DNA of 64,000 nt from Pagrus major (taxonomy: Eukaryota > Chordata > Actinopteri > Spariformes > Sparidae): assembly GCF_040436345.1 (NCBI RefSeq), contig NC_133223.1, positions 5,865,847-5,929,846 on the forward strand, given 5' to 3'. A model generated the notes under the pieces. It made no database searches. It was not told the DNA's origin and was given only the letters and a program-made list of their open reading frames with translations. Below are positions 10,103 through 46,246 of this stretch, piece by piece. The translations under genes and the position numbers were made by a program. Position 1 is the stretch's first letter. Every line of letters starts with the position of its first letter.

Positions 10103-11267
10103 CTACAGTATGTTTGCCTCACTGGAGTCAGGCTGCAGTATCTTAAATGTAACTATGAGTTTAATTGATTTTCTTAACCAGGGATAACAAAAGGCATAAA
10201 CCACAGGATTTAGACAGGAGTTAAAATCATACAACCAGAAAATAAAGGCAGCAGATGAAGCATTGAGCAAGTTATCTTGGCCTGTAAGAGCAACACAATA
10301 ATATGGGCAGAGACATATTAGAAACAAAACTACAACAACACCAAGAGTCCTGGCTGCTTTCATTTCAGATTTCTTTGCAGTTACTTTCCCTGATTGTGTG
10401 ACAGCTGCAATATGAGACCGCATGGCACGAGCCTGAGACACAGCCACCACAAATACTCTCATATACAAAACAACAATAACAGTAATGGGAACAATGAAGG
10501 AAAAAGTGAGATCTGCAAGTCCAGCAATGTAGTTAATGAAAAATATACACTCTCCAATGCAGGAGTGATACCTGCCTGGTTCTTTCATTATATCCTTCAG
10601 GATCAGACTTTGAAAAATTACAGAGCATATCCAACACAGACAAACACACACCTGAACTCTTTTTTGTGTGATTTCACTGGAGTAATGCAGAGGATGACAA
10701 ATAGCCACATAGCGGTCAACAGATATGAGCACCATGGTTCCTACTGAGGCTGAGGAAATAACATAATCTACATACTGATACACAGTGCACATGAGGTCAC
10801 CAAGGTACCAGCAGCCGTCTACGACGACAATTTGAAAGAACACGAGGAGACCAATGAAGAAATCTGAGACAGCCAGAGAGAGGAGGAGGAGGTTTGTGGG
10901 AGTGTGGAGCTGCCTGTAAAGGAAGAACAGCATGAATTTATCATTATTAATCATATCAATCATCATTCAGATAACAGATGATCGAGCACATGACTGAAAT
11001 ACGATCAGATTACTATCAAAAAAATCTGATTGTCACAGTTTAAATGTCAATACTTTTTACTACTATTCATTAGTTTATTAAATTAATGAATGTCTACTTG
11101 AAGTGGGAGATGGAGATGATGACCAGCAGGTTAAGAGCTGCAGTGAGCATAGAGCTGAAGGACAGCAGAATGTAAATCGGCATGGTCTCAAAGTGAGGAC
11201 GTATTGGCTTCCTGCAGGAGCTGTTGAGTTGTGGAAAGCAGAGGTCAGTTCCCTCCAAGGTCTCCAT
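10103..11267 (-). CDS. Trace-amine-associated receptor-like GPCR 1 (two exons)
   Basis: Exon 1 is 11098-11267 and exon 2 is 10103-10913, with a 184-bp intron (donor GTAGAC, acceptor TTTACAG). Total 981 nt, 326 residues. The start is the ATG of METLEG, because the ATG 20 codons upstream is missing in TAAR gene 3 while this one is shared by all four genes. Seven membrane segments are recognisable: TM1 before the splice site, QLHTPTN at TM2, Cys3.25, the DRY motif at TM3, a long TM5, FLICLCP at TM6 and NSCLNPVVY at TM7. NSCLNP...YPWL approximates the TAAR fingerprint (Leu replaces the final Phe). Amine contacts: Asp3.32, Asp5.42 and an unusual Asp7.43. An NSS glycosylation site is near the N-terminus. 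Expected role: olfactory amine receptor, G-protein coupled, plasma membrane. No disruption seen. Confidence 0.92.
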
Positions 11268-11480
11268 CACCAGAGAGAGGAGAACCTGCTGAGCTCTGGC
11301 AGCTTTTTGACCAAAGCTTTCCGTCATACAACTAATTTATCACTATCCTTCCAGCCCAGCCCTCCTTCCTCCTCACCTCTGCTGCTTTGTTCCTCTCCAT
11401 AGAGATTGAAGTATTAGGCCTTCTTTGTTCATCCTCCTCAATGTTGGTGACTTTGGTTTATGTTTATCTCCACCTTTGGC
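11268..11480 (-). promoter_or_regulatory. Conserved 5' flank of TAAR genes
   Basis: About 150-200 bp upstream of the start is well conserved among all four TAAR genes (here; 21131-21345; 30485-30690; 46247-46460), although the surrounding DNA differs for genes 3 and 4. It includes a pyrimidine-rich block on the plus strand (CCTTCCTCCTCACCTCTGCTG) and a GTGAGG on the gene strand that could be a 5' exon donor. I infer a shared promoter or 5' untranslated exon; no specific factor site is claimed. Confidence 0.4.
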
Positions 11481-11815
11481 CATCTGCCAGATGTCACAGG
11501 TCAAAGTTGGCTGAGCTCAAGTGGTAAATGTTGCTCTTTGTGAGAGTACATTCTTGCTCTAATCTTTGTGCACTTGAGATTATCCCAGCTGGTAGAAATC
11601 CCATGAACTTGTTCCTATTCCTGGAAATGTATGTAAAATTATAACAAAACACCTATCCCAGTCTAGCCCAAAGTAAATATAAAGCTGTTGGTGAACCATT
11701 TGGAGTACAGACATGGTTTGGGGCTCTCTTGAAAGGTTATTAAGATTACATCTTTTAATCCAAAAATAAGCCTGAAGATGATCTGTAACGGCCTCTATCA
11801 GCTGGAAGACACAAT

Positions 11816-12902
11816 GGGCCCTATTTAGGCAGTCTATAGCGCTCGGTCTAAAGCGTTGCACGCTAGTGCATTTAGGGCGTGTCCAAGTCCATTTTGCTAG
11901 TTAAATGATAGATAATCTGCAAGCAGGTGCACAGAGGTGGTATTTTGACTCTGAATTAGTCATGGGTGTGTTTTGGGTGGAACATAAATCAAACTAATCT
12001 GAGTGTCATCTCCCATTCCCTTTAAGAGCCAGGTGAGCCAGGGCCTGACACATTAAACAGTGGCATTCATCTTTGCTGAGGGAAAGGGATGTGGTCCTCG
12101 GCTGGTGGACCCTCTGCCCCGCCGTTTCAATCATCTGTCCCATCAACAACTCTGTTTGACTGCATATGAAAAAATACACAGATATTTAACTGAGGAGGAG
12201 GAGAAGTGCTGCTGCTGCGTCCCTCTGTGTTTGCAAGGATCTCGGTTTGTAGATCAGAAGAGTCATAAAAAGTATCATCCTGATCAATAACCGGTGGGAT
12301 GAGAGGGGAGAAATACGTCCTTAATGAGGAAAATATTAATGACATTACCTGCAGCAACTCTCCAGCAGTAGAAACTTTATGTGTATCTCTACATTAACAT
12401 ATGCATTTGCGCACATGGAACATCTGATAAACTTCATTGATTATTTAAAACTCCTAACTCGTTTCCTTTGGAGAGTTTATAACTACAGCTTTTAGTTTGT
12501 CATGCTATTTGATACAGTACATGACTGCATTCATGGAAATGTTTAAATTAACTGAAAGCAGCCTCTCCACTCATAAAATCAGAGTGTATGAACGCTGTCA
12601 ACCCATCAGTGTAGGCGCATCTGATGTGCTCTTTAAATAGCAGGAAACAGACTGCGCTTTTGACTTTAGCCCAGCGTTTTGTTCGTCCATGGCACAGTCA
12701 CTTTCCGCTGCCTCAAGATAGAAATCCGTCATCAGCAAGCCTGACCACACCTCATTTTAAGACAAACGCCAAGGAGCGCACGGGTGGGTGCAAGTAGATG
12801 TGCTATTTACACAGTGTGGGCGCTGGGCGTGAAAATGACAGCTGTGTCGGTCTGAAAACTAGCAAAGAGCACTTTGTGCTGAGTGTAAGATAGAATGGGT
12901 CC
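11816..12902. mobile_element. Candidate non-autonomous DNA transposon, copy in unit A
   Basis: It begins GGGCCCTATTTAGGCAG and ends with an imperfect inverted match (AAGATAGAATGGGTCC). The interior has repeated GTGTGGGCGCTGGGCGTG-type words and segments such as TTCCCTTTAAGAGCCAGGTG that I recognise from a very common teleost element. No transposase is encoded. The target-site duplication is not clear, so the superfamily is left open. The same element is at 21679-22766 in unit B. Confidence 0.5.
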
Positions 12903-13482
12903 ACATCATGTAGTCTTACATGGTCCAAGTTCAATTTACTAACAATATTACTGAAAATGGGCTCTTAACACTTATAGACTCTTAACAAATATCCAGGCGC
13001 TTGGCAAAACAATGCTATTGTATGACCTCAAAATACCCCTGATAGCCTCAGCAGAGTAACACGGGCAAAAACTCATTATAGTTCTTTATTTCCTTATTTA
13101 CTTTAACTTTGTGCATATAAAATAGTCAAAGGTGCTTAAAGCCTATTAAAAGAAAAAAAAGTGCATAAAACTATATAAACTTGATTTTAAATTTATAGCT
13201 TTAAAAACAGAAATAAACTACATATTACTGGATTTAAAATCTCAGCTGTAGTTTTGGTTACATGATGCATCAATCATTCGGAGGCTTGTGTGTAAGTGGC
13301 TCAGGAGAGAGGATCACTCATTGGTTAAAGGCTCTAGGGCGGACATAGAAGCTCATATCTGCTCAAATGAGCTGTCGATCAAATGGCTGCCATCTCAGGA
13401 TCTCCGGTGGAGAGGGATAATGGTGTCTGCGAGGAGTTGTTTGACAGATAAAAGCATGAATAAGCATCCGTGATCGCAACAC
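12903..13482. other. No gene seen; AT-rich intergenic sequence
   Basis: Rich in A/T runs and short poly-A. It matches 22767-23348 in the next unit. No coding frame, RNA gene or repeat structure was recognised. Confidence 0.6.
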
Positions 13483-14048
13483 CAAGACAGTTTATTGGTG
13501 AGTTGGCAAATCTTCATAGATGCTAGTTTGTTTTTTCATTGACTGTACTTTGCTAATGTGGTTTTATCTTGAAGTGGTTTATATGAATAGACTAATGAGA
13601 ATCTACACTTTCTAACAATGTATGGTATGTCTGTACATTAAATTGAGACATTTGCGTATTTGCTTAGCTGTGACTGTAAAGTTTGGCGAACTAGCCAGAT
13701 GCTGACTTTTAAGAGGTTAACAGCACATGACTTCTCTGATTCAGTTCCAGGATGTCCAGTGTTATTGCGTGAGTGTCTATTCACCAACAGGAACAACACC
13801 TAGCCTTAAGTTATTGTGTAACGGCACACATTGACAGTGTGTGAGTCTGTGTGTTTGAATTCAATTGAGCCTCTAAATGAATGGATGTATTCACCAGTCA
13901 CTCTTTCTTCTCTTTACGCTCTCTTATGTGCATTCATTCCTTGAAGTACAGTTCCCCTGCAACTCCATTCAGATGAAGTCAACATTATAGTACAATTCTA
14001 ATAATGATAAGCGGGGGTGAAAATCCATCTACATTTTAATCCTGTGTC

Positions 14049-14524
14049 TGTAGGCGTGGCAGCGGTGACAACAGCAGCAGAGAGGCACACCTGCAGATCA
14101 TCAACTCAACAACCTTTGCTATTTATTCCCAGTCTCTTCTCCACTCCGGGGCCAGATTGTTCCGTTCCGTATGGTGATTGTATCAGTGCCGCTTTCTATT
14201 GTGTTTAGCTATCTTCATAAGTATTTTGTAGTGTTGAGATTTCTCCTGTGCCTATGCTCCAGTGTTTTTCCCTGTCTGGGCTACGTCTCATGCTGGTGTT
14301 TTGTTTCCCTCGTGTGCAGAACTTCCCGCGCCTCTCCGTTCTGCTTCCTGCTCCAATGGCTCACCTGAGTTCCCTCCATGCTGCCACTAGACAACCCTGC
14401 CTGCCTGCTGCCCTCCTCGTCCGCTATTTCCTCAAGAACTCAGTCCTGTAATAAATTCCTCTAAACCTGATTTCCAGCCTCTGATCTCTGCATTTCAGGT
14501 CTAGACCAAAACCCCACCGTAACA
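14049..14524 (+). repeat. Unclassified LTR-like repeat (copy in unit B)
   Basis: Counterpart of 6003-6473 with the same TG start, CA end and AATAAA. It shares the absence of a visible target duplication. Confidence 0.35.
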
Positions 14525-14797
14525 CATCAAATGTCTAGGAGCCTCTCATGCGTCAACAAGCCAGCACAGCTGAGTGACTTTTATAAAAAGGTCTGGTCTA
14601 TCCAGTGTCATGTGACTCTCAAGTAACTACATTGTCTGACAGTCCAGCAATCTGTGGTTGTAGCGCCATGGTTCACAAAACTCAACGTCCTAATAATCAA
14701 GCTTTTTGGCTTTGGCAGCTTCTCGTATTTTCAAGGCCACTGTTTTTCATGACGTTATTGTGCAGTGAGGTTGTAATGTTTGTATTATGTTCTGAAA

Positions 14798-14890
14798 TTA
14801 AGGTAATTCAATCACAGAGAATGGCTGGTTGCCTTCACTGATAAAGTCAAGCAAAGCCTTGTCTAAGGTTCCCTGTCTTACCTGTAGGAC
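14798..14890 (-). pseudogene. Small hAT transposase fragment
   Basis: The minus-strand frame reads KALLDFISEGNQPFSVIE, resembling the FI...QPFSVVE segment that precedes the catalytic domain of ZBED/hAT transposases. It lies downstream of the larger hAT relic on the same strand and may be part of the same dead element, rearranged. Counterparts are near 6755-6845 and 24674-24766. The match is short, hence low confidence. Confidence 0.3.
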
Positions 14891-15216
14891 AGACAAGGAA
14901 AAGGCACTTACATTTGCATTCTTAAAGTTAGTTTGAGTCTTTAATGTGAAGTTGTATGAGGTACTTATCCCTAGTCGATGAATTACCTTCAGCAGATCTC
15001 CCCTTGTGTGGAGAAGCAGTGCGTAGCATCTACAGGGAAGCAGAGTATTGTTCTGCTGTACACTTCTCCATACAGGAGGACTGACAGTCATATACTGCAG
15101 GTAATTAACTGTTACCAACAAAAGCAATGAAGGACCCACTTCATGTATAACAGCATTTAATAACAATGACACAATAATTATAATGCACATATATACACGT
15201 ACCATTTCAGTGAGAC

Positions 15217-18200
15217 AGGTGAACCTTAGCTGTGGTGATCTTTGTGGCAGTGAGAGCAGAAAAGCATTTCACACAAAGATAGGTTGTTACAAAAGGCATC
15301 AAAAACTACATAACTTTCAGAGATGATGCTGGGTACTCAGCCTGTTGTTGGATCCAAAAATTAACAAGTGACATTTTGGGGAATTCCAAAACCAGAATGC
15401 TGTCTGATAATTCACGCAGCATCTCCTGTTCAGCACCTGTCAGATCATCTGGTATTTCTGTTGCGTCAACAGAAAAGGGGTCTCTGAGCCAGGCCTGGCC
15501 TCAACTGAAAGTTACTCTGTGAACTGGTCTGCCATGGGTAAGAGGTGCCAAGACACTGCATCTTGAATCGAAGTGTCAGATGAACCCAGCTTGAGATAGG
15601 TCTCCAAAGCTGGAAAAGCAGCAACACCCCCAGCCCTGACTTTTGTGGTGTAGGAACACATGTCCATCGCCTCTGCATTACATTGAGGCCCTGTTGTTCT
15701 TGTTAACCCTTTTCATCTGGATGAAGACGATTTACAGGAAGGAGGCGTCTTCCAGGCTGACCATCTTATCTCCTGGCAGAGAGGATAGTGTTTTCCTGGA
15801 CCATAAAGACTTCAAATGAGGACAGTTTAATTAATTTACAACTAAACTCCCATTTCTGAACTCTCTTTCCCCTCAAAACAGATAAATCCTTCCCTCACAG
15901 GTCAGTCTGAGGAAACATGGAGTTACCTATTCTCTCCACATCAGGAGGGACCGGAGCCATCTGGTTATCAGAGACTGTGTGAATACAATGTCTTTACATT
16001 TGCAGATTAAGTAACACGCCTGATCTCTCTCTCTTTCTCTCTCTGTCTCTATGACTTCTGATCCACAAACACACTCTCCAGAGTGGACACCAGACACCTT
16101 CTGACGTGTTGTTCTATGCTATTACTCTGTCTTCTGTTATTTACGACACATCTGGTCTCAACTATCTGTGGGACATTCCATTCAAATGGCCTCTGTATTC
16201 TTCCAGATTTCAGACCATTTCTAATTAACCATTAAGTCAGTATCTCACTCTCTTAATTCTAACCAATTAAGAAACAGTAAAAGAAGTTCATAAAACTGAT
16301 CTTTTTCCCGTTTCTCTACGATTAAGATTGACTGAGATCAAGTTTTAATGTTTAATCTGTACTGTGTTCGGTGGAACCACAGCACCTCCTGATGGTGAGT
16401 CCTGGTACAGTTGGACGAGAAATATTCTGTTTAATATGTTCATGGTTATAACCAGTAAAGGACTCTGATATGTCTTTGTTTTAACAAGTATTAAGCTGAA
16501 ATATGTATAATTAATGTTTAATCACGTCATAATCCTTTTCATGATAGACAAAGTACATCTATGAAGCCATGGTGAAATTCTGTGAGAAGGTGAAGCACTG
16601 TTTTTAACGTTTAAATCTTGGAGATAAAAACCGGTAAGCCCCGCCTAGACACGCCTCGATTTGCAAATAATAAAACGGAGAGATCACGTCTCTCGAGTCA
16701 GTTTTAGTTTTTAGTTTTTAGAGGTTTTTTAGTTTTTGAGTTTTAGTCCAGTTTGAGTTTTGTTTTAGTTTGTTTTAAGTTTTTCTTTTGTAACTTATTT
16801 TTGAAGCTTTTTACTTTACTTTGAAACACGCTCCAAGACAGCGATCTCAGCAGAAGTGCTCACGCGTTGATTTTTCTCACTTTATATTTTTCTCAGTATT
16901 GATTAGCTTCTTTTATTAAGTTTGTACCAGAACAAAGTTCTGTTTTAATTTGTTTTATACCGTTAAGTATCGTAACTTGCTTTTGAAGAAGTGAACTTAA
17001 TTTAGATTATCTTGCATTAACTAACAACGGAAGATCCGCCTGATCAACGTATCATCCTCAGTTATTTTATTCAAGAAGTTAAAATTAGTTTACAAAGTCA
17101 GAGCCTGAGAACCACTCGAAGAAACGAAGAAGAACATCTTTATCAATCATCATCACGACACTACAGCAACTTGCTGTGTCCGAGACCGTGAAAGCGGTTT
17201 TCCAACGAAAGACTCTGTTGACAAGCCCCCAGCGCTCGCTAGCGGTACCATCCCGCTGGGCATTGAGCCAAGATCTGCACCGGATCGGTACGGGACCAGC
17301 TGCCCTCTTCCTAAGACAACGGACCGAGGTGCCCAACCGACTGATACCGGACGAGCTGACCACCGGCCATTGGACCGGGACTGCCAGCTAGAGCCGCAAA
17401 TCACCCGAGGGAATCCGCTGCCGCGGACTCCGCAACTCTGCTAAGAAAGTAGGCTCTCCATCACTCACAACAGCTGGATTCACACATGATACATGAGATG
17501 GTGTATATGGCTCTGGTTCTGATCTTGTAGCTTAAGAGAAATTCGGTTAGGGTCTCGCTAGTATTAAAATTACTACCGTAATATTTAAATGCTTCAACCT
17601 AACTCGTGATCTCACCATCAGCCCATATTCCACTAATAACCCATTACTTAGTTATTTCACATTTCCTGTTACCTGTTGTTATTCATTTAAATTGCCATTT
17701 CATTTATTTAACCTGAATTATTTAGTCAATAAACATATTTAACCGTATGTCGTTGTCTGTGCAGGTTTGTTTTTAATGTGGAGAACCGATGGATATGTGT
17801 AGAATTCACTACTTCATTTATGAGATTGAATAAATTGATCTGAAATTGGTTAGAATTGATACAAGTTAAACTTGTCCAGTCGAATTTGATTAATTACCTC
17901 CAGATTATTCAAATAGACAAAACAACGGAGGTGGTGCCCCATTAATGAGTGTTTTATTAATCGCCAGTGATTAATAAATTACATTTATTATTAGTGTATC
18001 TCCTACAGTGGCAAGCAGCTGCAGCTTTTTCTTCATGACAGTGATTTTGTCATGGACCTCAACAACTGTCAGACTGTATTTCTGTAGTCCCATGTTGTGC
18101 TAATTCAGATATGAAAATGTATGCTGGATAGGCAAAATGTCCCAGCCACTGTTGGTCAATAGATTAGACTGTTGCTCTAGGAAAAAAATATACTCACTTC

Positions 18201-18607
18201 ATAATGGATTTGTAGAGCCTGGTTAGCACTTTACCTCTCAACAGCCATCTAACTTCTGTATGCAACAGAAGTTGCACATGTTTACTGCTCATTTCGTTGC
18301 AGAGCACACTGAAGATATGTAAGTCCATAGGTCAAGCTTTGATGTAAGTGTCTATGACAGCAGTGTCTAGCACAGACTTAAGTTCCTCTGGCTTTTCTCT
18401 TGGTGTATGCTGCATTGGCTCCAGTTGACATTTGGGACTTTCTGTCGTATCCTTGCCACTACACCACTGTTTCGCCCAGTAATGACTTTCACTCCATCTG
18501 TACAAACACCTGTGCATTTGGTCAAGTCAATGCCATTCTCTTCAATAAATGTGACAAAAGATTTGCTCTCCAGTTGTCCTGGTCAGATAAACTCAAACTC
18601 ATATCTA
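15217..18607 (-). pseudogene. hAT/ZBED-like transposase relic, copy B, split by LTR insertion
   Basis: Same relic as 7165-8200, with the same broken frames and motif order, but interrupted at 15649-18007 by the LTR-like insertion. C-terminal sequence lies at 15217-15648, the rest at 18012-18607. Loss of function predates the insertion, because copies A and C share the stops. Confidence 0.7.
15649..18007 (+). mobile_element. Long solo-LTR-like insertion (2359 bp), unit B only
   Basis: It begins TGTAGGA and ends TCCTACA, a 7-bp inverted end with TG...CA. GTGG at 15645-15648 is repeated at 18008-18011, whereas the uninterrupted sites in units A and C have a single GTGG. An AATAAA is near the 3' end (about 17730). 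The middle has a TTTTAGTTTTTAG-rich stretch and then a GC-rich 17150-17450 block. No gag or pol is recognisable. I read it as a solo LTR of a large LTR element (some fish retroviral-type LTRs exceed 1 kb). A non-autonomous LTR-like element of another kind is possible. Confidence 0.65.
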
Positions 18608-19962
18608 ACACATTGTGGCCTTTGCTGCTCCTCTGGCCCTGTGATGGTAAATCCCAAATTGAGATGCCTGAGCCTGGTAACCTCTCTTTACTTTCTTGCT
18701 AGAAGTGGTGCTGCCTGGCTTCAGCACTGGCGCCTAGACATGGCATGGAGTTCATCTGACCAATCAGGGCCAGCTTTGTCACTTGTCTTTGTCACTATTT
18801 AAATATTCCACTCATGCAGCTTTTTAAGTCCCAATCTCACTGCATTCGATGGCTTACTAGTTCATGTTGGCTGTCACGTTCATTGATGTATAAGTCACGT
18901 CATTTCACATTCAACCAAGGTCCAAACTAATCAAAGAATAACTGTGGTATAAATTTACAGAAGGAATGTATGACTTGTGCATTGTTTAGGTGATTTGGAA
19001 GTCTCAGAGTCCTTCGCACTTGCAGAGGTAAAGATAAAGATAAAATGCAGAGCTTGTGGATGTACCAGACTCCCCTGATGTTACTGAATGTGAAATGACA
19101 TTGACAGAAAGTTACCCACATTGTTTGCATTCTCCAAGGTACCATTATTTTACAGGACTGTAGATGCCTTGGAAAGTCTTGCAAAATGCCATGACATTAA
19201 ACCTTTTGATATTTGACTGTGTCCATGTATTTGTGTCATAATAAACTATATTCAAGTGAGGACAACTGAAGCTTATTGGGTTTATTAAGTTTATTGATTT
19301 ATTCATTAAAGCAATGAGCTGTCACTCGAAGCAGGCTGAAGCTTCACCTCAGTGCACAAAAAGTTCAATATGTTCATCATGAAATGTTCCGTTTTTGTGT
19401 CACTTATTTATGAGATTGCTTTGTTATGAGATTACTAAGATGGATTGGTAAAAATGAATAAAATCAACTTTAAAAGTGCTATGTGTAATATAAATGACCA
19501 AGGAATACAACAATTTATATTTTATCTACATCAAATTGAACATTAATATGTTTATCATTTGGGCTCTGTTTATACCTTAATAGGGCAACGTATCCTTGGA
19601 GATACAACTCATAAGATCCAAAATACTGAATATATGTATATTTTGAATGTGGAAATATTTTTCTTAGGGCCTAAAGAGATGAGTGATGACATTAAATTAT
19701 TTTTTGCAACTTAGTTTCCACTCCTGCCTGTTTTAGGGGTAGCATAAGAATAAAATCAAGCATAAGAATAAAATCAACAGGCTGAGGCTTTACCTCAGTG
19801 CACAAAAAGTTCAATATGTTCATCATGAAATGTTTCGTTTTTGTGTGACTTTTTTATGAGATTGCTTTCTTTGATTCGCAGCATTTAATTACTCTTCACC
19901 GTGACATGTATGTTTGTCTATTCATGCTCAGGGTCTCATTTCAGGCCCCATGCAGAGTGTCT

Positions 19963-21130
19963 CTACAGTATGTTTGCCTCACTGGAGTCAGGCTGCAGTA
20001 TCTTAAATGTAACTATGAGTTTAATTGATTTTCTTAACCAGGGATAACAAAAGGCATAAACCACAGGATTTAGACAGGAGTTAAAATCATACAACCAGAA
20101 AATAAAGGCAGCAGATGAAGCATTGAGCACACTATCTTGACCTGTAAGAGCAACACAATAATATGGGCAGAGACATATTAGAAACAAAACTACAACAACA
20201 CCAAGAGTCCTGGCTGCTTTCATTTCAGATTTCTTTGCAGTTACTTTCCCTGATTGTGTGACAGCTGCAATATGAGACCGCATGGCACGAGCCTGAGACA
20301 CAGCCACCACAAATACTCTCATATACAAAACAACAATAACAGTAATGGGAACAATGAAGGAAAAAGTGAGACCTGCAAGTCCAGCAATGTAGTTAATGAA
20401 AAATATACACTCTCCAATGCAGGAGTGATACCTGCCTGGTTCTTTCATTATATCCTTCAGGATCAAACTTTGAAAAATTACAGAGCATATCCAACACAGA
20501 CAAACACACACCTGAACTCTTTTTTGTGTGATTTCACTGGAGTAATGCAGAGGATGACAAATAGCCACATAGCGGTCAACAGATATGAGCACCATGGTTC
20601 CTACTGAGGCTGAGGAAATAACATAATCTACATACTGATACACAGTGCACATGAAGTCACCAAGGTACCAGCAGCCGTCTACGACGACAATTTGAAAGAA
20701 CACAAGGAGACCAATGAAGAAATCTGAGACAGCCAGAGAGAGAAGGAGGAGGTTTGTGGGAGTGTGGAGCTGCCTGTAGAGGAAGAACAGCATGAATTTA
20801 TCATTATTAATCATATCAATCATCATCCAGATAACAGATGATCGAGCACATGACTGAAATACGATCAGATTACTATCAAAAAAATCCGATTGTCACAGTT
20901 TAAATGTCAATACTTTTTACTACTATTCATTAGTTTATTAAATTAATGAATGTCTACTTGAAGTGGGAGATAGAGATGATGACCAGCAGGTTAAGAGCTG
21001 CAGTGAGCAGAGAGCTGAAGGAAAGCAGAATGTAAATCGGCATGGTCTCAAAGTGAGGACGTATTGGCTTCCTGCAGGAGCTGTTGAGGAGTTGTGGAAA
21101 GCAGAGTTCAGTTCCCTCCAAGGTCTCCAT
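19963..21130 (-). CDS. Trace-amine-associated receptor-like GPCR 2 (two exons)
   Basis: Exon 1 is 20958-21130 and exon 2 is 19963-20773, with a 184-bp intron (GTAGAC...TCTACAG). Total 984 nt, 327 residues. In exon 2 only four residues differ from gene 1: Leu to Phe before Cys3.25, Asp to Gly at 5.42, and two loop-3 residues (SV instead of NL). Asp3.32 and DRY are kept, and 7.43 is Asp as in gene 1. The 5.42 change is one base (GAT to GGT), which removes the second amine-binding acid while leaving the classical one. It has seven membrane segments, a Cys pair and the NSCLNP motif. No disruption. Expected to be an olfactory amine receptor with altered ligand range. Confidence 0.92.
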
Positions 21131-21678
21131 CACCAGAGAGAGGAGAACCTGCTGAGCTCTGGCAGCTTTTTGACCAAAGCTTTTTGTCATACAACTAATT
21201 TATCACTATCCTTCCAGCCCAGCCCTCCTTCCTCCTCACCTCTGCTGCTTTGTTCCTCTCCATAGAGATTGAAGTATTAGGCCTTCTTTGTTCATCCTCC
21301 TCAATGTTGGTGACTTTGGTTTATGTTTATCTCCACCTTTGGCCATCTGCCAGATGTCACAGGTCAAAGTTGGCTGAGCTCAAGTGGTAAATGTTGCTCT
21401 TTGTGAGAGTACATTCTTGCTCTAATCTTTGTGCACTTGAGATTATCCCAGCTGGTAGAAATCCCATGAACTTGTTCCTATTCCTGGAAATGTATGTACA
21501 ATTATCACAAAACACCTATCCCAGTCTAGCCCAAAGTAAATATAAAGCTGTTGGTGAACCATTTGGAGTACAGACATGGTTTGGGGCTCTCTTGAAAGGT
21601 TATTAAGATTACATCTTTTAATCCAAAAATAAGCCTGAAGATGATCTGTAACGGCCTCTATCAGCTGGAAGACACAAT

Positions 21679-22766
21679 GGGCCCTATTTAGACAGTCTAT
21701 AGCGCTCGGTCTAAAGTGTTGCACGCTAGTGCATTTAGGGCGTGTCCAAGTCCATTTTGCTAGTTAAATGATAGATAATCTGCAAGCAGGTGCACAGAGG
21801 TGGTATTTTGACTCTGAATTAGTCATGGGTGTGTTTTGGGTGGAACATAAATCAAACTAATCTGAGTGTTGTCTCCCATTCCCTTTAAGAGCCAGGTGCG
21901 CCAGGGCCTGACACATTAAACAGTGGCATTCATCTTTGCTGAGGAAAAGGGATGTGGTCCTCGGCTGGTGGACCCTCTGCCCCGCCGTTTCACAATCATC
22001 TGTCCCATCAACAACTCTGTTTGACTGCATATGAAAAAATACACAGATATTTAACTGAGGAGGAGGAGAAGTGCTGCTGCTGCGTCCCTCTGTGTTTGCA
22101 AGGATCTCGGTTTGTAGATCAGACAAGTCATAAAAAGTATCATCCTGATCAATAACCGGTGGGATGAGAGAGGAGAAATACGTCCTTAATGAGGAAAATA
22201 TTAATGACATTACCTGCAGCGACCCTCCAGCAGCAGAAACTTTATGTGTATCTCTACATTAACATGCACATTTGTGCACAAGGAGCATCTGATAAACTTC
22301 ATTGATTATTTAAAACTCCTAACTCGTTTCCTTTGGAAAGTTTATAACTGCAGCTTTTAGTTTGTCATGCTATTTGATACAGTACATGACTGCATTCACG
22401 GAAATGTTTAAATTAACTGAAAGCAGCCTCTCAACTCATAAAATCAGAGTGTATGAACGGTGTCAACCCATCAGTGTAGGCGCATCTGATGTGCTCTTTA
22501 AATAGCAGGAAACAGACTGCGCTTTTGACTTTAGACCAGCATTTTGTTCGTCCATGGCACATTCACTTTCCACTGCCTCAAGATAGAAATCCGTCATCAG
22601 CAAGCCTGACCACACCTCATTTTAAGACAGACGCCAAGGAGCGCACGGTGGGTGCAAGTAGATGTGCTATTTACACAGTGTGGGCGCTGGGCGTGAAAAT
22701 GACAGCTGTGTCGGTCTGAAAACTAGCAATGACCGCTTTGTGCTGAGTGTAAGATAGAATGGGTCC
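21679..22766. mobile_element. Candidate non-autonomous DNA transposon, copy in unit B
   Basis: Counterpart of 11816-12902, beginning GGGCCCTATTTAGACAG and ending AAGATAGAATGGGTCC. A minus-strand frame of about 117 codons crosses it but shows no family features and is broken in unit A. Confidence 0.5.
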
Positions 22767-23925
22767 ACATCATGTAGTCTTACATGGTCCAAGTTCAATT
22801 TACTAACAATATTACTGAAAATGGACTCTTAACACTTATAGACTCTCAACAAATATCCAGGCGCTTGGCAGAACAATGCTATTGTATGACCTCAAAATAC
22901 CCCTGATAGCCTCAGCAGAGTAACACGGGCAAAAACTCATTATAGTTCTTTATTTCCTTATTTACTTTAACTTTGTGCATATAAAATAGTCAAAGGTGCT
23001 TAAAGCCTATTAAAAGAAAAAAAGTGCATAAAACTATATAAACTTGATTTTAAATTTATAGCTTTAAAAACAGAAATAAACTACATATTACTGGATTTAA
23101 AATCTCAGCTGTAGTTTTGGTTACATGATGCATCAATCATTCGGAGGCTTGTGTGTAAGTGGCTCAGGAGAGAGGATCACTCATTTGTTATTGTAGGCTC
23201 TAGGGCGGACATAGAAGCTCATATCTGCTCAAATGAGCTGTCGATCAAATGGCTGCCATCTCAGGATATCCGGCGTAGAGGGATAATGGTGTCTGCGAGG
23301 TGTTGTTTGACAGATAAAAGCATGAATAAGCATCCGTGATCGCAACACCAAGACAGTTTATTGGTGAGTTGGCAAATCTTCATAGATGCTAGTTTGTTTT
23401 TTCATTGACTGTACTTTGCTAATGTGGTTTTATCTTGAAGTGGTTTGTATGAATAGACTAATGAGAATCTACACTTTCTAACAATGTATGGTATGTCTGT
23501 ACATTAAATTGAGACGTTTGCCTATTTGCTTAGCTGTGACTGTAAAGTTTGGCGAACTAGCCAGATGCTGACTTTTAAGAGGTTAACAGCACATGACTTC
23601 TCTGATTCAGTTCCAGGATGTCCAGTGTTATTGCGTGAGTGTCTATTCACCAACAGGAACAACACTTTACTGTACCCTAGCCTTAAGTTATTGTGTAACG
23701 GCACACATTGAGAGTGTGTGAGTCTGTGTGTTTGAATTCAATTGAGCCTCTCAATGAATGGATGTATTCACCAGTCACTCTTTCTTCTCTTTACGCTCTC
23801 TTATGTGCATTCATTCCTTGAAGTACAGTTCCCCTGCAACTCCATTCAGATCAAGTCAACATTATAGTACAATTCTAATAATGATAAGCGGGGGTGAAAA
23901 TCCATCTACATTTTAATCCTGTGTC

Positions 23926-24400
23926 TGTAGGCGTGGCAGCGGTGACAACAGCAGCAGAGAGGCACACCTGCAGATCATCAACTCATCAACCTCTGCTATT
24001 TATTCCCAGTCTCTTCTCCACTCCGGTGCCAGATTGTTCCGTTCCGTATGGTGATTGTATCAGTGCCGCTTTCTATTGTGTTTAGCTATCTTCATAAGTA
24101 TTTTGTAGTGTTGAGATTTCTCCTGTGCCTATGCTCCAGTGTTTTTCCCTGTCTGGGCTTCGTCTCATGCTTGTGTTTTGTTTCCCTCGTGTGCAGAACT
24201 TCCCGCGCCTCTCCGTTCTGCTTCCTGCTCCAATGGCTCACCTGAGTTCCCTCCATGCTGCCACTAGACAACCCTGCCTGCATGCTGCCCTCCTCCTCCG
24301 CTATTTCCTCAAGAACTCAGTCCTGTAATAAATTCCTCTAAACCTGATTTCCAGCCTCTGATCTCTGCATTTCAGGTCTAGACCAAAACCCACCGTAACA
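23926..24400 (+). repeat. Unclassified LTR-like repeat (copy in unit C)
   Basis: Counterpart of 6003-6473 and 14049-14524, with the same boundaries and polyadenylation word. Confidence 0.35.
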
Positions 24401-25092
24401 CATCAAATGTCTAGGAGCCTTTCATGTATCAACAAGCCAGCACAGCTGAGTGACTTTTATAAAAAGGTCTGGTCTATCCAGTGTCATGTGACTCTCAAGT
24501 AACTACATTGTCTGACAGTCCAGCAATCTGTGGTTGTAGCGCCATGGTTCACAAAACTCAACGTCCTAATAATCAAGCTTTTTGGCTTTGGCAGCTTCTC
24601 GTATTTTCAAGGCCACTGTTTTTCATGACGTTATTGTGCAGTGAGGTTGTAATGTTTGTATTATGTTCTGAAATTAAGGTAATTCAATCACAGAGAATGG
24701 CTGGTTGCCTTCACTGATAAAGTCAAGCAAAGCCTTGTCTAAGGTTCCCTGCCTTACCTGTAGGACAGACAAAGAAAAGGCACTTACATTTGCATTCTTA
24801 AAGTTAGTTTGAGTCTTTAATGTGAAGTTGTATGAGGTACTTATCCCTAGTCGATGAATTACCTTCAGCAGATCTCCCCTTGTGTGGAGAAGCAGTGCGT
24901 AGCATCTACAGGGAAGCAGAGTATTGTTCTGCTGTACACTTCTCCATACAGGAGGACTGACAGTCATATACTGCAGGTAATTAACTGTTACCAACAAAAG
25001 CAATGAAGGACCCACTTCATGTATAACAGCATTTAATAACAATGACACAATAATTATAATGCACATATATACACGTACCATTTCAGTGAGAC

Positions 25093-26125
25093 AGGTGAAC
25101 CTTAGCTGTGGTGATCTTGGTGGCAGTGAGAGCAGAAAAGCATTTCACACAAAGATAGGTTGTTACAAAAGGCATCAAAAACTACATAACTTTCAGAGAT
25201 GATGCTGGGTACTCAGCCTGTTGTTGGATCCAAAAATTAACAAGTGACATTTTGGGGAATTCCAAAACCAGAATGCTGTCTGATAATTCACGCAGCATCT
25301 CCTGTTCAGCACCTGTCAGATCATCTGGTATTTCTGTTGCGTCAACAGAAAAGGGGTCTCTGATCCAGCCAGGCCTGGCCTCAACTGAAAGTTACTCTGT
25401 GAACTGGTCTGCCATGGGTAAGAGGTGCCAAGACATTGCATCTTGAATCGAAGTGTCAGATGAACCCAGCTTGAGATAGGTCTCCAAAGCTGGAAAAGCA
25501 GCAACATCCCCAGCCCTGACTTTTGTGGCAAGCAGCTGCAGCTTTTTCTTCATGACAGTGATTTTGTCATGGACCTCAACAATTGTCAGACTGTATTTCT
25601 GTAGTCCCATGTTGTGCTAATTCAGATATGAAAATGTATGCTGGATAGGCAAAATGTCCCAGCCACTGTTGGTCAATAGATTAGACTGTTGCTCTAGGAA
25701 AAAAAATATCCTCACTTCATAATGCATTTGTAGAGCCTGGTTAGCACTTTACCTCTCAACAGCCATCTAACTTCTGTATGCAACAGAAGTAGCACATGTT
25801 TACTGCTCATTTCGTTGCAGAGCACACTGAAGATATGTTAGTCCATAGGTCAAGCTTTGATGTAAGTGTCTATGACAGCAGTGTCTAGCACGGACTTAAG
25901 TTCCTCTGGCTTTTCTCTTGGTGTATGCTGCACTGGCTCCAGTTGACATTTGGGACTTTCTGTCGTATCCTTGCCACTACACCACTGTTTCGCCCAGTAA
26001 TGACTTTCACTCCATCTGTACAAACACCTGTGCATTTGGTCAAGTCAATGCCATTCTCTTTAATAAATGTGACAAAAGATTTGCATTCCAGTTGTCCTGG
26101 TCAGACAAACTCAAACTCATATCTA
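25093..26125 (-). pseudogene. hAT/ZBED-like transposase relic, copy C
   Basis: Third copy of the broken hAT relic, uninterrupted, with GVCTDG, HTEVRWL and TTYLC..CFSALTA motifs in degraded frames. Shares the stops of copies A and B. Confidence 0.7.
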
Positions 26126-26862
26126 ACACATTGTGGCCTTTGCTGCTCCTCTGGCCCTGTGATGGTAAATCCCAAATTGAGATGCCTGAGCCTGGTAACC
26201 TCTTTTTACTTTCTTGCTAGAAGTGGTGCTGCCTGGCTTCAGCACTGGCGCCTAGAAATGGCATGGAGTTCATCTGACCAATCAAGGCCAGCTTTGTCAC
26301 TTGTCTTTGTCACTATTTAAATATTCCACTCATGCAGCTTTTTAAGTCCCAATCTCACTGCATTCGATGGCTTACTAGTTCATGTTGGCTGTCACGTTCA
26401 TTGACGTATAAGTCACGTCATTTCACATTCAACCAAGGTCCAAACTAATCAAAGAATAACTGTGGTATAAATTTACAGAAGGAATGTATGACTTGTGCAT
26501 TGTTTAGGTGATTTGGAAGTCTCAGAGTCCTTGCAGAGGTAAAGATAAAGATAAAATGCAGAGCTTGTTGTTATGTACCAGACTCCCCTGATGTTACTGA
26601 ATGTGAAATGACATTGACAGAAAGTTACCCACATTGTTTGCATTCTCCAAGGTACCATTATTTTACAGGACTGTAGATGCCTTGGAAAGTCTTGCAAAAT
26701 GCCATGACATTAAACCTTTTGATATTTGACTGTGTCCATGTATTTGTGTCATAATAAACTATATTCAAGTGAGGACAACTGAAGCTTATTGGGTTTATTA
26801 AGTTTATTGATTTATTCATTAAAGCAATGAGCTGTCACTCAAAGCAGGCTGAGGCTTCACCT

Positions 26863-29343: not shown

Positions 29344-30484
29344 CTACAGTATGTTCAACTCACAGGAGTCAGGCTGCAGTATCTGAAATGTAACTATGAG
29401 CTTAGTTGATTTTCTAAACCAGGGATAATAAAGGGCATAAATTACAGGGTTTAGGCAGGAGTTAAAATAATACAGACATATTACAAAGGCAGCAGATGAA
29501 GCATTGAGCACACTATCTTGGCCTGTAAGAGCAACACAGTAAAATGGGCAGAGACATATTAGAAACAAAACTACAACAACACCAAGAGTCCTGGCTGCTT
29601 TCATTTCAGATTTCTTTGCAGTTACTTTCCCTGATTGTGTGAAAGCTGCAATATGAGACCGCATGGCACGAGCCTGAGACACAGCCACCACAAATACTCT
29701 CATATACAAAACAACAATAACAGTAATGGGAACAATGAAGGAAAAAGTGAGATCTGCAAGTCCAGCAATGTAGTTAATGACAAATACACACTCCCCAATG
29801 CAGGAGTGATACCTGCCTGGTTCTTTCAATATATCCTTCAGGATCAGACTTTGAAACATTACAGAGCATATCCAACACAGACAAACACACACCTGAACTC
29901 TTTTTTGTGTGATTTCACTGGAGTAATGCAGAGGATGACAAATAGCCACATAGCGGTCAACAGATACGAGCACCATGGTTCCTACTGAGGCAGAGGCAAT
30001 AACATAATCTACATACTGATACAGAGTACACATGAGGTCACCAAGGAACCAGCAGCCGTCTATGAGGACAATTTGAAAGAACATGAGGAGGCCCACGTAG
30101 AAATCTGAGACAGCCAGAGAGAGGAGGAGGAGGTTGGTGGGAGTGTGGAGCTGCCTGGAGAGGAAGACCAGCAATATATTTATCAATATTTATAGTGATT
30201 TATAGCACATGACTGAAATACAATCAGATTACTATGAAAAAAATCCTCTGTTTCTCACAGGCAAGACTCTTTGTTACTATGTATCAGTTTTATGAATTAA
30301 TGAATGTCTACTTGAAGTGGGAGATGGAGATGATGACCAGCAGGTTAAGAGCTGCAGTGAGCAGAGAGATGAAGGACAGAAGAATGTAAATCAGCATGGT
30401 CTCAAAGTGAGGACGTATTGGCCTCCTGCAGGAGCTGTTGGGGAGTTGTGGAAAGCAGAGTTCAGTTCCCTCCAAGGTGTCCAT
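29344..30484 (-). CDS. Trace-amine-associated receptor-like GPCR 3 (two exons)
   Basis: Exon 1 is 30312-30484 (starting MDTLEG, under 60 codons) and exon 2 is 29344-30154, with a 157-bp intron (GTAGAC...CTCCAG). Total 984 nt, 327 residues. It keeps Asp3.32, Asp5.42 and the more usual Tyr7.43, so all three contact positions look like a di-amine receptor of the TAAR13c type. The C-terminal fingerprint NSCLNPVIY...YPWF is complete. Position 6.48 is Leu as in its neighbours. It is more diverged than genes 1 and 2 from each other, but a short loop-3 patch (SVLNAS) equals gene 2. No disruption seen. The upstream in-frame ATG used by the longer alternative in the other genes is absent. Confidence 0.92.
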
Positions 30485-37986: not shown

Positions 37987-40242
37987 TTATAACAGTAACT
38001 TACCCTTGACAACATGCCAGGGGTCAAACTCATGACAGATTTGGGGATATTCTTCTCTCAATAGTTTCCGGATGGAGGGTGATCGGTCAGTGGTCATCAC
38101 GGCCACATCCACCCCACAATCCAGCAACTCGTTCAGGCCCCTCTGAAATCCCATCACCTCTATCGCGACAGAGCTTGTTGCTTCTGACACCTAGAGCATA
38201 ATGGATATTCAAAAGTTATACATCCACAGGTGTTTTTCCCCTTGTGAAAGCAGCCTTCTATCACAGTGCATTTTAGTTTTGGATAGATAAATTACCTGGA
38301 CCAATTCAAAATTGATAATTTGCTTGGTGACGTCATTTTGGAAAGAGTAGGTGGAGTACTTTGCACTGTAACCTTAGAAGAAAAACACAGATGGTACAGT
38401 TTCCCGTTGGAGGGGGGTTAGGGTTATGATGGTGTATGAGATGATTATGTAATATTGCTAACAATCTAACATTTACCTGGACTATCACACCTTGCATCAC
38501 CACAGAGTTCAAGCCTCTTTCCGGATTGTGAGTCTTCAATGAGCTGAGATATGATTTGGTCACGTTTATCTTGGTAGGCAGACTGTATGGCGGGTAGAAG
38601 ATAGGTCCTCTGAATGTTGTAGAACTTTGTTTGGTGAGGAATGGGAATGTTTAGAAGAGTTGCCTAGTCTGCTAAGTCTGTGTACATGGATCCAGTGAAA
38701 ACTGTTGATGCACAGATTTGCAGATTATTTTCTGGCATGCCTCTTCGGTTAGGACATGATTGCCAGTAACCAGAGTGTTTCCCACAGGTCCATTGGATTT
38801 TGATTTGGCTGCCTTTGGTGGTGGTTGTAGTCTCAGCTATTGAACTGGTACACTTGGGACAAGTTTGGAAAAGTTGAAGGAGGTGTGTTTTTTCGGCCCA
38901 TCCTGTTGCGTTGTCTCCAGAAGAGCTTACAGACCCAGACGTAGTCCCTGTGCTGGAAGGCGAGCCGGAAATTGGTGGTACAAAGCTGGTGTCTGTGGGC
39001 TCTAGAACCAAGTCCCCAAAACTCATGCTGACATCACGCACTTCTGGGTCCATTTCACCTTCCTCTTCACTCTGAAGACACAAGATAGTTTTGGAATTTT
39101 TTCACAAACTCACATATGGTCAAGTAAGAAATTTTCACTATCATAGTAACATTTAGATGACAACTTTTTTTTATGCAGACATGTTTGTCCTTTTACAAAG
39201 AATAAAAGACAAGCCTCTCAACTCATTTGCAGTGATGGCAATGATGTAGAGGCAGAAGGGTGTGCAGTAATCAAAGTGGAGGTTGATGTGGATGGGATCG
39301 GGTCCTAGTGCACACAAAAACAATACACATTGTGTCAGTGTAATAATGGAGGGGCAAAATAGATACTCTGCTAATATCCATAAAAGACATTTTTGCTGCT
39401 GTGCTTACCACTGAGTGTGACCATGTAGGGGCCAAAGCAATGTATTTCCCAGATAGGGATCGTCTTGTGCGTGGTGTTGTCTGAGGTGGACTCGTGAGCA
39501 CTAGAGTCAATGCAGAGGATAAATAAGGCCAAGACGATCCAGATGGCTCCTCAACTGCTCTGTGTTGGCTTTTGATTGGAGTGGATTGCAGGTGTGTTTC
39601 AAAGTCTGGTTCTGGAAAATATACCTCACCACTGGCACTTTCCTAAAAAATAAAATAAGTATGTGACACAACATCATAAAAAAAACAGCTTTTAGTTGAA
39701 TACACTGTTGATGAGGTTTCTATTTGTAGCCTACACGTAGGTACGGGTGCGTGTCTATGTTCCCATTTAAAATTGCTATTTTATTATCTATAGGTTGTTC
39801 TTTTTATTCCTTGTGTTGTTATTGTCACTATGTGTAATGCTGCTGTTGCACTGTAATTTCCCAGCTTGGGATGTATAAAGTCTATCTATCTATTTATCTA
39901 TATTACACCAATCCATGTGCACAGGTTATAGCCTAATAAAATCATTACCCAAACCTGCATTAGAAATGCATCACCTCCGTTGGTTCAGACGGTTCAGACG
40001 CTGAATTTTCTGGCCTTCTCTCATTGGCTTTGGAGGAAAAAAGTCATCCTGCGTGAAGTGAGCACTGCAAACCCGATGATTCGCACCTCTCAATGCTTCC
40101 ACTTGAGTATTCGGGTCCATTTTCAGCGCAACTAGCCAGAGTTGAGTAAGTCCAGGTTGCGAGGAGGAAGCCTGTGGAAGCTGAATTTTGTCCAATTGGT
40201 CATTTTGTTCGGACAATTTGGAAATACGCAGTAACGAACCAT
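37987..40242 (-). pseudogene. Kolobok THAP-domain transposase, multi-exon, degraded
   Basis: The gene starts at ATG 40242 with MVRYCVFPNCPNK and FSFHRLPPRN. After a frameshift near 40140 it continues LWLVALKMDPN and HRVCSAHFTQDDFFPPK, giving the C2-C-H zinc signature of a THAP domain. Further pieces on the same strand: a Ser/Thr-rich linker (39083-38900); a cysteine region LLQLFQTCPKC with WTCGKHSGYWQSCP and NNLQICASTVFTGS (38860-38670); and a catalytic-type segment GVDVAVMTTDRSPSIRKLL followed by HEFDPWHVVKGKL (38110-37990). These follow the order of known Kolobok transposases. Exon borders between pieces were not resolved and the end is missing. Confidence 0.65.
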
Positions 40243-40667
40243 AGCAGTGCCAAATTGCAGCTAAACGAGCCGACCGCCGCAGAGTGGCTGTGCGCGGCGC
40301 TCAGAGATGACATCATCCAGGTCAGAGGTTAGTAGGTCAACCTACAGACCCCGGATGTTGATAACAGGCAACCCCGGACTCAGAGGGGAATAGCACTAGC
40401 GTATCATAACAAAATGTTGGTGAAATGAACTAGTTTCGCGGCAGATAATGCGTTATATAGAGGCTGCGCTTCGGTGCCCCAATCACTCGCATTATATGGA
40501 TATAGGCGGCGCTCCACTGGATCTAATTTCGTCCGAACGACTCCAAATGATACCAAAGTTATCTGGGTGAGTAAATGATTGTATTTTATGCTAGAAATAA
40601 GGTCTAGGTTGTAAAAAACGGCAATTCTCCTTTAATACTTTTGTGCAGTGACTAGTAGTTTGTGACC

Positions 40668-44013: not shown

Positions 44014-44038
44014 ACGCTCCTGAACATAAAGGGAGGGG

Positions 44039-44254: not shown

Positions 44255-44765
44255 ATTATAAACAGCAAACAGTGAATAATTGTTGTCTATATTAACATTT
44301 GACTAATTTAAGTCGGGCTGTCAAATATTAAATGGTATGTGAGGATTAAGGTGTGAAGCCTTGACAATATAAATATGTGACAGATCAATAATGTAAACTA
44401 TTGTCTTGTATTTTTCCTTTGTGTTTGACTTTTAGTGTATTCCAGTTATTAATGTGGTCTGAGAGGGACAGGTCTGGACAGCATCAAACTGATATGAAGC
44501 TGATTTACATGAGAATTTATGTAAAATGGAGGTTGATCCATGAACAGAAATCACAAATCGCCTGTATAGCGCTTTAGTTTCAAATTTGATTTTTTTAATC
44601 AATTATTTTTTTTTTTAATTAACAAACCTTTTGTCCTTGATCTGGCTCCATACACAGTCAACCCTAGAGGCTTCTTTGTAAAACAACAACTGATTAAACA
44701 AACCAGCAGTAGCGTCACACAGTCATTCTTAGAGAAGATCATATTGTAGTCTACACAATGTGAAG
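44255..44765. other. Intergenic, no gene seen
   Basis: AT-rich, with no long open frame and no recognised repeat. Confidence 0.5.
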
Positions 44766-44990
44766 ACAAATACACACTGATCAGCCACAACATTAAAACC
44801 ATTGTCATCAATCAGCCACAACATTTCAAAGTCATCAGATCAAGCCGTTGCCATGAGGGGGTGTACTTGGTCTGCAGCCGTGCCCAGATAGTTGCTAATA
44901 TCTGTCAACGAACATCCACTTGACCACTTAGCAGAACATTGCCTTGTAAAGAAATGATCAATGTCATTCACTTCACCTGCAGGCAGTTTT
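44766..44990 (-). mobile_element. Tc1/mariner-like relic, inverted relative to 46888-47481
   Basis: Contains terminal words CAGCCACAACATTAAAACC and CACTTCACCTGCAGGCAG, plus a 26-bp segment (44851-44876 region) that is the reverse complement of 47032-47057. The coding part is gone. It lies about 100 bp from the 3' end of TAAR gene 4. Confidence 0.5.
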
Positions 44991-45084
44991 GACCTTATAT
45001 GATCTTGTGTATGATCTTGCAGTATGACAAAGTATGTTTTTCAGTCATGCTGAGGGCCTAATTTCAGGCCCATGCAGAGTCTTT

Positions 45085-46246
45085 CTATAGTATATTAAAC
45101 TCACAGGAGTCAGACTGCAGTATCTTAAATGTAACTATGAGCTTAATTGATTTTCTAAACCAAGTATAAAACAGGGCATATATTACAGGGTTTAGGCAGG
45201 AGTTAAAATTGTACATGCATATTACAAAGGCAGCAGATGAAGCATTGAGCAACTTATCTTGGCCTGTAAGAACAACACAATAATATGGGCAGAGACATAT
45301 TAGAAACACAACTACAACAATACCAAGAGTCCTGGCTGCTTTCATTTCAGATTTCTTTGCAGTTACTTTCCCTGATTGTGTGACAGCTGCAATATGAGAC
45401 CGCATAGCACGAGCCTGAGACACAGCCACCACAAATATTCTCATATACAAAATGACAATAACAGTAATGGGAACAATGAAGGATAAAATGAGATCTGCAA
45501 GTCCAGCAATGTAATTAATGACCAATATACACTCCCCAATGCAGGAGTGATACCTGCCTGGTTCTTTCATTATATCCTTCAGGATCAGACTTTGAAAAAT
45601 TACAGAGCATATCCAACACAGACAAACACACACCTGAACTCTTTTTTGTGTGATTTCACTGGAGTAATGCAGAGGATGACAAATAGCCACATAGCGGTCA
45701 ACAGATATGAGCACCATGGTTCCTACTGAGGCAGAGGAAATAATATATGCTAGATACTGATACAGAGTACATATGAGGTCACCAAGGAACCAGCAGCCGT
45801 CTATGAGCATAATTGGAAAAAACATGAAGAGGCCAACGTAGAAATCTGTGACAGCCAGAGAGAGGAGGAGGAGGTTGGTGGGAGTGTGGAGCTGCCTGGA
45901 GAGGAAGAACAGCAATATATTTATCAATATTTACTGTATCAATTACCATTGAGATAACAGCAGATAGAGCACATGACTGAAATACAATAAGATCACCACC
46001 ATTTTTCACAGTTTATTATCAGGCAATACTTTTTATTACCATTCATTAGTTTCATGAATTAATGAATGTCTACTTGAAGTGGGAGATGGAGATGATGACC
46101 AGCAGGTTAAGAGCTGCAGTGAGCAGAGCGATGAAGGACAGCAGAATGTAAATCAGCATGGTCTCAAAGTGAGGACGTATTGGCTTCCTGCAGGAGCTGT
46201 TGAGGAGTTGTGGAAAGCAGAGGTCAGTTCCCTCCAAGGTCTCCAT
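45085..46246 (-). CDS. Trace-amine-associated receptor-like GPCR 4 (two exons)
   Basis: Exon 1 is 46074-46246 and exon 2 is 45085-45895, with a 178-bp intron (GTAGAC...CTCCAG). Total 984 nt, 327 residues, start METLEG. It has seven membrane segments, DRY, Cys3.25 with the loop-2 CIGEC, and NSCLNPVIY...YTWF at TM7. The classical amine anchor Asp3.32 is Ala (QYLAY where the others read QYVDY), while Asp5.42 is kept; 7.43 is Asn. That is the pattern of non-classical teleost TAARs, where the acid in TM5 takes over amine binding. Leu at 6.48. No disruption. Flanked by inverted Tc1-like relics. Expected to be an olfactory receptor with a changed binding orientation. Confidence 0.92.

Follow-up and report, generated by a model that had tools for sequence, protein, structure and literature searches.

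The 64,000-nucleotide stretch of the Pagrus major genome analysed here (the window; C9:5865847-5929846 of a 786-Mb, 25-contig genome, with feature positions counted within the window) carries on its minus strand four intact two-exon TAAR genes, which we call genes 1 to 4 (Table 1). Each comprises a short exon 1 encoding the N terminus and the first transmembrane helix (TM1), a GT-AG intron of 157-184 bp and an exon 2 of 811 bp, and no reading frame, splice site or class A anchor is disrupted. The proteins are 326 (gene 1) or 327 (genes 2-4) amino acids (aa) long. TAAR was present in all 15 of the best distinct solved-structure matches (several of them fusions, one with a beta-2 receptor part), and the 7tm_1 domain PF00001 was found in the two genes scanned, gene 1 (E = 7e-45) and gene 4 (E = 1.4e-44). 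The intact frames and the structure matches support the claim of an earlier note, made from the sequence alone, that four neighbouring TAAR genes lie here. The intron falls in the first intracellular loop at codon 57/58 and, by the GT-AG boundaries, splits a codon. Cichlid TAARs likewise have two coding exons with an intron in the first intracellular loop, although theirs lies close to codon 55 in phase 0 (Azzouzi et al. 2015, PMC4415300; this and the papers below are cited from excerpts of their text).

Positions were numbered from the DRY motif (3.50), Pro5.50 and the NPxxY motif (7.50), and the numbering was checked by HMMER alignment with zebrafish TAAR13c (9m2s) and TAAR13d (9m0x). The three sites of interest fall opposite Asp112(3.32), Asp202(5.42) and Tyr299(7.43) of TAAR13c, and in TM3, TM5 and TM7 the alignment runs ungapped from anchor to site (residue numbers from PMC4914996, in which Trp296 is 7.40, from which Tyr299 = 7.43 follows). 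At 3.32/5.42/7.43, genes 1 to 4 read D/D/D, D/G/D, D/D/Y and A/D/N, respectively. The corresponding codons are GAT, GAT, GAT and GCA at 3.32, GAT, GGT, GAT and GAT at 5.42, and GAT, GAT, TAT and AAT at 7.43. The alignment agrees with the sets that had been proposed for these genes and leaves the sites undisplaced. Asp3.32 and Asp5.42 occur together in genes 1 and 3 only among the four, as they do in TAAR13c and TAAR13d. Genes 1 and 2 differ by four residues in exon 2 (3.23 L/F, 5.42 D/G, 6.61 N/S and the next residue, L/V), and the codons agree with the claimed replacement of the TM5 acid by a GAT to GGT change; in exon 1 they differ further by D8E, by 1.44 M/L and by one codon that is deleted from gene 1. 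The aminergic D3.32-W6.48-Y7.43 core is complete in none of the four genes, as 6.48 is Leu throughout and D3.32 is combined with Y7.43 in gene 3 only, whereas TAAR13c and TAAR13d both keep Trp6.48 and Tyr7.43. Position 7.40 reads W/W/C/C.

A contrast between both acids, the TM3 acid only and the TM5 acid only is thus seen within one cluster, as the earlier note had pointed out, but it is not new, because all three types are established in teleosts (Li 2015, PMC4695389). In zebrafish, 91 of 112 TAARs have Asp5.42, 84 without and 7 with Asp3.32, and one TAAR lacks both (PMC4695389). Responses were abolished when Asp3.32 was removed in clade I or Asp5.42 in clade III, mutation of either aspartate in TAAR13a, 13d, 13e and 14d reduced or abolished dication responses, and both aspartates of TAAR13c are called essential; in the scheme proposed by Li et al., clade III first acquired Asp5.42 and later lost Asp3.32 (PMC4695389).

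Position 7.43 stands apart. It had been listed as one of three contact sites, and although its numbering holds, its equal standing with the other two does not: Asp7.43 is the odd part, the residue being Tyr in studied TAARs. Tyr7.43 hydrogen-bonds Asp3.32 in those receptors (PMC4914996; PMC11364543), and Tyr7.43, Asp3.32 and Trp6.48 are described as invariant across the TAARs of mouse and human (PMC11364543). In lamprey TAAR365, five Tyr7.43 substitutions (Asp not among them) reduced or abolished responses, with cadaverine potency down by up to 1000-fold (PMC8546428). TM6 and TM7 residues help to hold extra amino groups in lamprey TAAR365 and mouse TAAR9 (PMC8546428) and in lamprey TAAR348 (PMC12476453), and 7.43 matters for polyamines; all three receptors have Tyr7.43 and an extra acid at Glu7.36 or Glu6.58, whereas here Asp is found at 7.43 itself. 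A literature search returned no report of Asp7.43 in TAARs or other G-protein-coupled receptors, nor of Y7.43D or Glu7.43, although notation such as Asp299(7.43) could escape such a search, as could most subscription journals. Because the four genes vary in 58 of 327 columns, and because 7.43 was chosen after its variation had been seen, variation at a single named site is unremarkable among them. As evidence for an unusual 5.42 and 7.43, a survey of the genome weighs more than the four-gene comparison.

In that survey, 142 of 813 candidates were scored and 80 TAAR or TAAR-like loci were fetched, so the repertoire count is a lower bound. Counts for TM5 to TM7 cover the 78 loci that reach TM7; two partial loci, L087 and L088, were left out, and L041, in which a one-residue deletion removes 7.43, was counted as not Asp. 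In a quick protein tree (simpler model, no bootstrap), 50 of these loci, on C9, C1, C24 and C11 and including the window genes, form one clade with a Shimodaira-Hasegawa-like approximate likelihood ratio test (SH-aLRT) value of 100. TAAR13c, the one of the two zebrafish receptors placed, joins a 22-gene C10 cluster (SH-aLRT 99) rather than this clade; published core members of clade III were not among the sequences in the tree. Several of the 28 loci outside the clade, L086 among them, are only 30-40% identical and are called TAAR-like.

Asp5.42 is present in 49 of the 50 fetched clade loci, with gene 2 as the sole exception: of the acids D3.32 and D5.42, 13 loci have both, 36 have D5.42 only and gene 2 has D3.32 only. 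In both its near-constant Asp5.42 and the absence of Asp3.32 from most members, the clade resembles clade III teleost TAARs (PMC4695389), but it also contains five Asp7.43 members and one Asp3.32 member without Asp5.42, neither of which is reported in the excerpted text of that paper. The five Asp7.43 loci, among the 78, are genes 1 and 2 and three A/D/D paralogues (L011, L012 and L013), and all belong to a 15-gene subfamily (L009-L023) that includes the window genes. The sets in this subfamily are A/D/S (5), A/D/D (3), D/D/Y (3), and one each of D/D/D, D/G/D, A/D/Y and A/D/N. Tyr7.43 is found in 48 of the 78 loci (25 of 50 in the clade, 23 of 28 outside it), and within the clade it tracks Asp3.32, occurring in 11 of the 14 loci that have this acid and in 14 of the 36 that lack it (Fisher p = 0.013, ignoring relatedness). 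Of the three clade genes that have Asp3.32 but lack Tyr7.43, two are genes 1 and 2. None of the 50 clade loci has Trp6.48, which 24 of the 28 other loci carry, so activation of these 50 receptors must proceed without the usual toggle residue. The residues at 6.48 in the clade (L009-L058) are F (19), L (18), V (5), I (4), H (2), Y (1) and S (1).

The survey also gives a direction to the changes. Gly5.42 of gene 2 is derived, since the other 49 clade loci have Asp, and Asp7.43 is derived from Tyr, since the nearest tree genes outside the subfamily (L024-L031; D/D/Y, A/D/Y or N/D/Y) all carry Tyr7.43. On a 27-gene tree built without the TM3 and TM7 segments, Asp at 7.43 takes 2 changes and 3.32 (Asp or not) takes 7, with the TM3 acid switching repeatedly between paralogues. 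Of the 15 subfamily genes, 14 encode residue 3.32 by GAT or GCA and one by GCT. Counting exon-2 nucleotides (nt) from 0 at the Gln codon of QLHTPTN, eight consecutive variable sites in TM3 codons 3.31-3.38 (nt 141-164) have a mean excess change of 2.9, the highest of 120 such runs, compared with 0.6 at the 119 other variable exon-2 sites. L011 is identical to L013, about 246 kb away, over a 79-nt TM3 stretch (nt 107-185), and elsewhere is nearest to genes 1 and 2. Gene 3 and L018 differ at 10 nt in exon 2, of which 5 are in TM3 and include the GAT/GCA switch (scan p = 0.0105, uncorrected). The TM3 stretch with the Asp/Ala switch has the most discordant history in exon 2, through short gene conversion or recurrent change, and short conversion explains the pattern well. 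Homogenisation of exons over the whole gene by conversion was considered separately; synonymous divergence is lower than intron divergence, but it differs little from the divergence of the aligned upstream flank (8-12%), and for this reason such homogenisation is not claimed.

Genes 1 and 2 lie in tandem copies A and B, of about 7.5 kb each when the insertion in copy A is set aside, which are 98.06% identical by BLAST over 6.2 kb, with 94 substitutions at 6,165 sites in a global alignment. The gene of a third copy, unit 0, is presumably best taken as L011, which is 98% identical to gene 1, reads A3.32/D5.42/D7.43 and lies 4.2-5.0 kb left of the window start. Copy A is distinguished from copy B by a local duplication at its left edge. 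It also holds a 2,359-bp insertion (15649-18007) whose ends are TG...CA and which is flanked on each side by a 4-bp GTGG repeat; unit 0 and copy B lack it at the corresponding positions. Elsewhere, TAAR copies that are broken or partial are signs of gene turnover; they comprise L022 (C9:6175053), L078 (C10:1157288), L087 (C9:6163443) and L088 (C9:6118416-6118988), with in-frame stops in L022 (an internal TAA), L078 and L087, and partial matches in L087 and L088.

We put at roughly 60% the probability that all four genes encode working olfactory receptors of the large Asp5.42-marked teleost TAAR clade (clade III type), in a growing tandem array in which changes of acid would retune ligand choice. 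Three things about the array are unusual, namely Asp7.43, the loss of Asp5.42 in just one of the 50 clade loci and the TM3 stretch that switches; most of the rest is a local case of known TAAR variation. The mechanism and the ligand assignments we infer from sequence comparison: each acid would lie in the orthosteric pocket and pair with a protonated amine. Gene 3, with D3.32 and D5.42, would be a diamine-type receptor, and gene 4, with D5.42 only, may bind monoamines in an inverted orientation. Gene 2, its TM5 anchor lost, would use the TM3 acid in the classical orientation, with Asp7.43 in place of the Tyr7.43 that would brace Asp3.32. With three acids, gene 1 would be the best candidate for a di- or polyamine receptor, or may hold an Asp-Asp pair sharing a proton. 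In the A/D/D paralogues, Asp7.43 may replace the lost TM3 acid, the anchor having moved to another helix, and a short exchange between paralogues, or repeated substitution, would switch the TM3 acid and permit quick retuning of tandem copies. A more specific history, which we regard as doubtful, would make Asp7.43 a third amine anchor. The acid would have moved from TM3 to TM7 in one subfamily (A/D/D, with a TM5-TM7 di-acid pocket), a TM3 exchange would then have restored Asp3.32 to give the three-acid gene 1, and loss of Asp5.42 would have left gene 2 with a TM3-TM7 acid pair. What the array does show is TM3 acid switching between near-identical paralogues, one copy without Asp5.42 and an acid at 7.43. 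Genes 1 and 2 (seven residue changes including exon 1, one a deletion), and likewise gene 3 and L018, are natural near-single-site variants for measuring the effect of each acid on ligand choice.

Several results weigh against the reading of working, retuned receptors. An AlphaFold model of gene 1 exon 2, with the other three genes as alignment, was unusable (mean predicted local distance difference test score 35.4, predicted template-modelling score 0.31), so the pocket geometry rests on homology and published work. The TAAR TM7 signature, NSxxNPxx[YH]xxx[YF]xWF, fits genes 3 and 4, and genes 1 and 2 end in WL, not WF. Among 157 teleost TAARs, 32 have a weak TAAR signature and 9 have none (PMC4786312). 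Position 7.43 is not fixed in the 50-gene clade (Y 25, S 8, L 6, D 5, N 2, F 2, H 1, gap 1), so Asp7.43 may be one tolerated replacement among several. The exon surroundings of genes 1 and 2 diverge by 1.4-1.6% per 500 bp, no more than the rest of the unit (0.2-3.4%), so drift could explain why gene 2 lost Asp5.42. Pair clustering, scanned in the 22 closest of 105 pairs with uncorrected p values, was mixed (gene 2/L011, p = 0.007; gene 1/L011, p = 0.07). At 35 pocket sites, set from general aminergic knowledge, the ratio of non-synonymous to synonymous changes was not significantly raised (43:22 versus 93:68, p = 0.15, for 15 genes; p = 0.67 for the four genes). Pocket sites are enriched in variable columns (13 of 35 versus 28 of 186 other TM sites among the four genes, p = 0.004) and in changes per site among 15 genes (1.23 versus 0.40; Mann-Whitney p = 2e-5, on a tree from which two pocket-rich segments are omitted, so that counts at those sites are inflated). 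Synonymous changes are also raised at the pocket sites, however, and positive selection specific to the pocket, which we had considered, is therefore not claimed.

Drift under relaxed constraint would account for these pocket ratios and for the wide variation at 7.43. Pocket residues would be lost or swapped at random, some copies, gene 2 above all, would be becoming pseudogenes, and the acid sets would have no ligand meaning. The broken relatives close by (L022, L087 and L088) also fit, as do pairwise ratios of non-synonymous to synonymous divergence (dN/dS) of 0.26-0.82 among the four genes. We nonetheless consider drift unlikely, given that all four genes keep their frames, splice sites and class A anchors, that the dN/dS of genes 1 and 2 is at the lower end, 0.26, and that Asp5.42 is retained almost throughout the clade while 3.32 varies freely. 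An assembly artefact, with copies A and B as two haplotypes or one locus placed twice and the codon differences as consensus errors, would suit their near-identity, which is seen at the level of the assembly. It is very improbable in view of the three related units, one of them marked by the GTGG-flanked insertion and the left-edge duplication, and of the absence of any frame-breaking indel in the four genes. Moreover, Asp7.43 recurs at distances of about 231 kb (L013) and about 250 kb (L012), and the window's sequences stand as distinct genes in the whole-genome assembly. For the TM3 discordance alone, repeated point mutation, perhaps under diversifying selection, is a possible but not a probable substitute for gene conversion. 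The most-changing sites are 3.36, 7.40, 3.31, 7.43, 3.34 and 3.32, and site combinations break up over fewer than 10 nt, very short for conversion, which is why repeated substitution keeps some weight against the exchange that we favour. On the other hand, GAT/GCA is a two-base change that would need to recur without surviving intermediates, and the 79-nt tract of L011 matches L013 exactly.

Table 1 TAAR exons and tandem units in the window.
Feature	Position	Strand	Remarks
Unit 0	5422..9343		Right part of third copy
TAAR remnant	9361..9486	-	Remnant of another TAAR copy: last codons (..QPDSSEANIL, stop) and 3' flank, 99% identical to gene 1
Tandem copy A	9481..19340		Holds gene 1; about 7.5 kb minus insertion
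Gene 1 (L009) exon 2	10103..10913	-	TM2-TM7; D3.32/D5.42/D7.43, W7.40, L6.48
Gene 1 exon 1	11098..11267	-	N terminus with NSS sequon, TM1
Tandem copy B	19341..26862		Holds gene 2
Gene 2 (L010) exon 2	19963..20773	-	D3.32/G5.42/D7.43
Gene 2 exon 1	20958..21130	-
Gene 3 (L017) exon 2	29344..30154	-	D3.32/D5.42/Y7.43, C7.40, F6.51
Gene 3 exon 1	30312..30484	-	Begins MDTLEG
Gene 4 (L023) exon 2	45085..45895	-	A3.32/D5.42/N7.43
Gene 4 exon 1	46074..46246	-

Beyond the clade of the window genes, 17 receptors of the C10 cluster, at C10 1.12-1.23 Mb (L059, L062, L064, L066-L073 and L075-L080) have Glu3.32, combined with Ser (12), Gly (4) or Thr (1) at 5.42, and 15 of the 17 keep Trp6.48. For Glu3.32 TAARs, no ligand is given as known in the excerpts of Li 2015 (PMC4695389). 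Two places outside the 80 fetched loci, C10:1228511-1229336 and C18:33749075, may be further broken TAAR pieces.

The tandem units also contain repeated open reading frames (ORFs) of 156 and 143 aa, at 14798-15268 and 24674-25144 on the minus strand and at 7964-8395, 18371-18802 and 25889-26320 on the plus strand. One copy of each length was scanned and had no Pfam match at E 0.001, and the 156-aa ORF had no PDB match at E 1. An Rfam scan of the window gave no match at gathering scores. Pattern searches of viral contigs and prokaryote genomes returned 69 and 22 matches, respectively, and no confirmed relative, as expected for a fish gene.

A reverse transcriptase/RNase H ORF of a long terminal repeat (LTR)-type retroelement (Pfam; 3433-5058) adjoins the truncated third tandem copy. 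DDE_Tnp_4 transposases lie at 34022-36058 and 56440-57396, the first beside a Myb/SANT ORF on the opposite strand, a pair that we take to be a PIF/Harbinger element. At 51944-54633, a reverse transcriptase ORF overlaps an integrase-family recombinase ORF, presumably a DIRS-type element. An inverted pair of about 400 bp, 93% identical, is located at 36470-36871 and 40242-40647.

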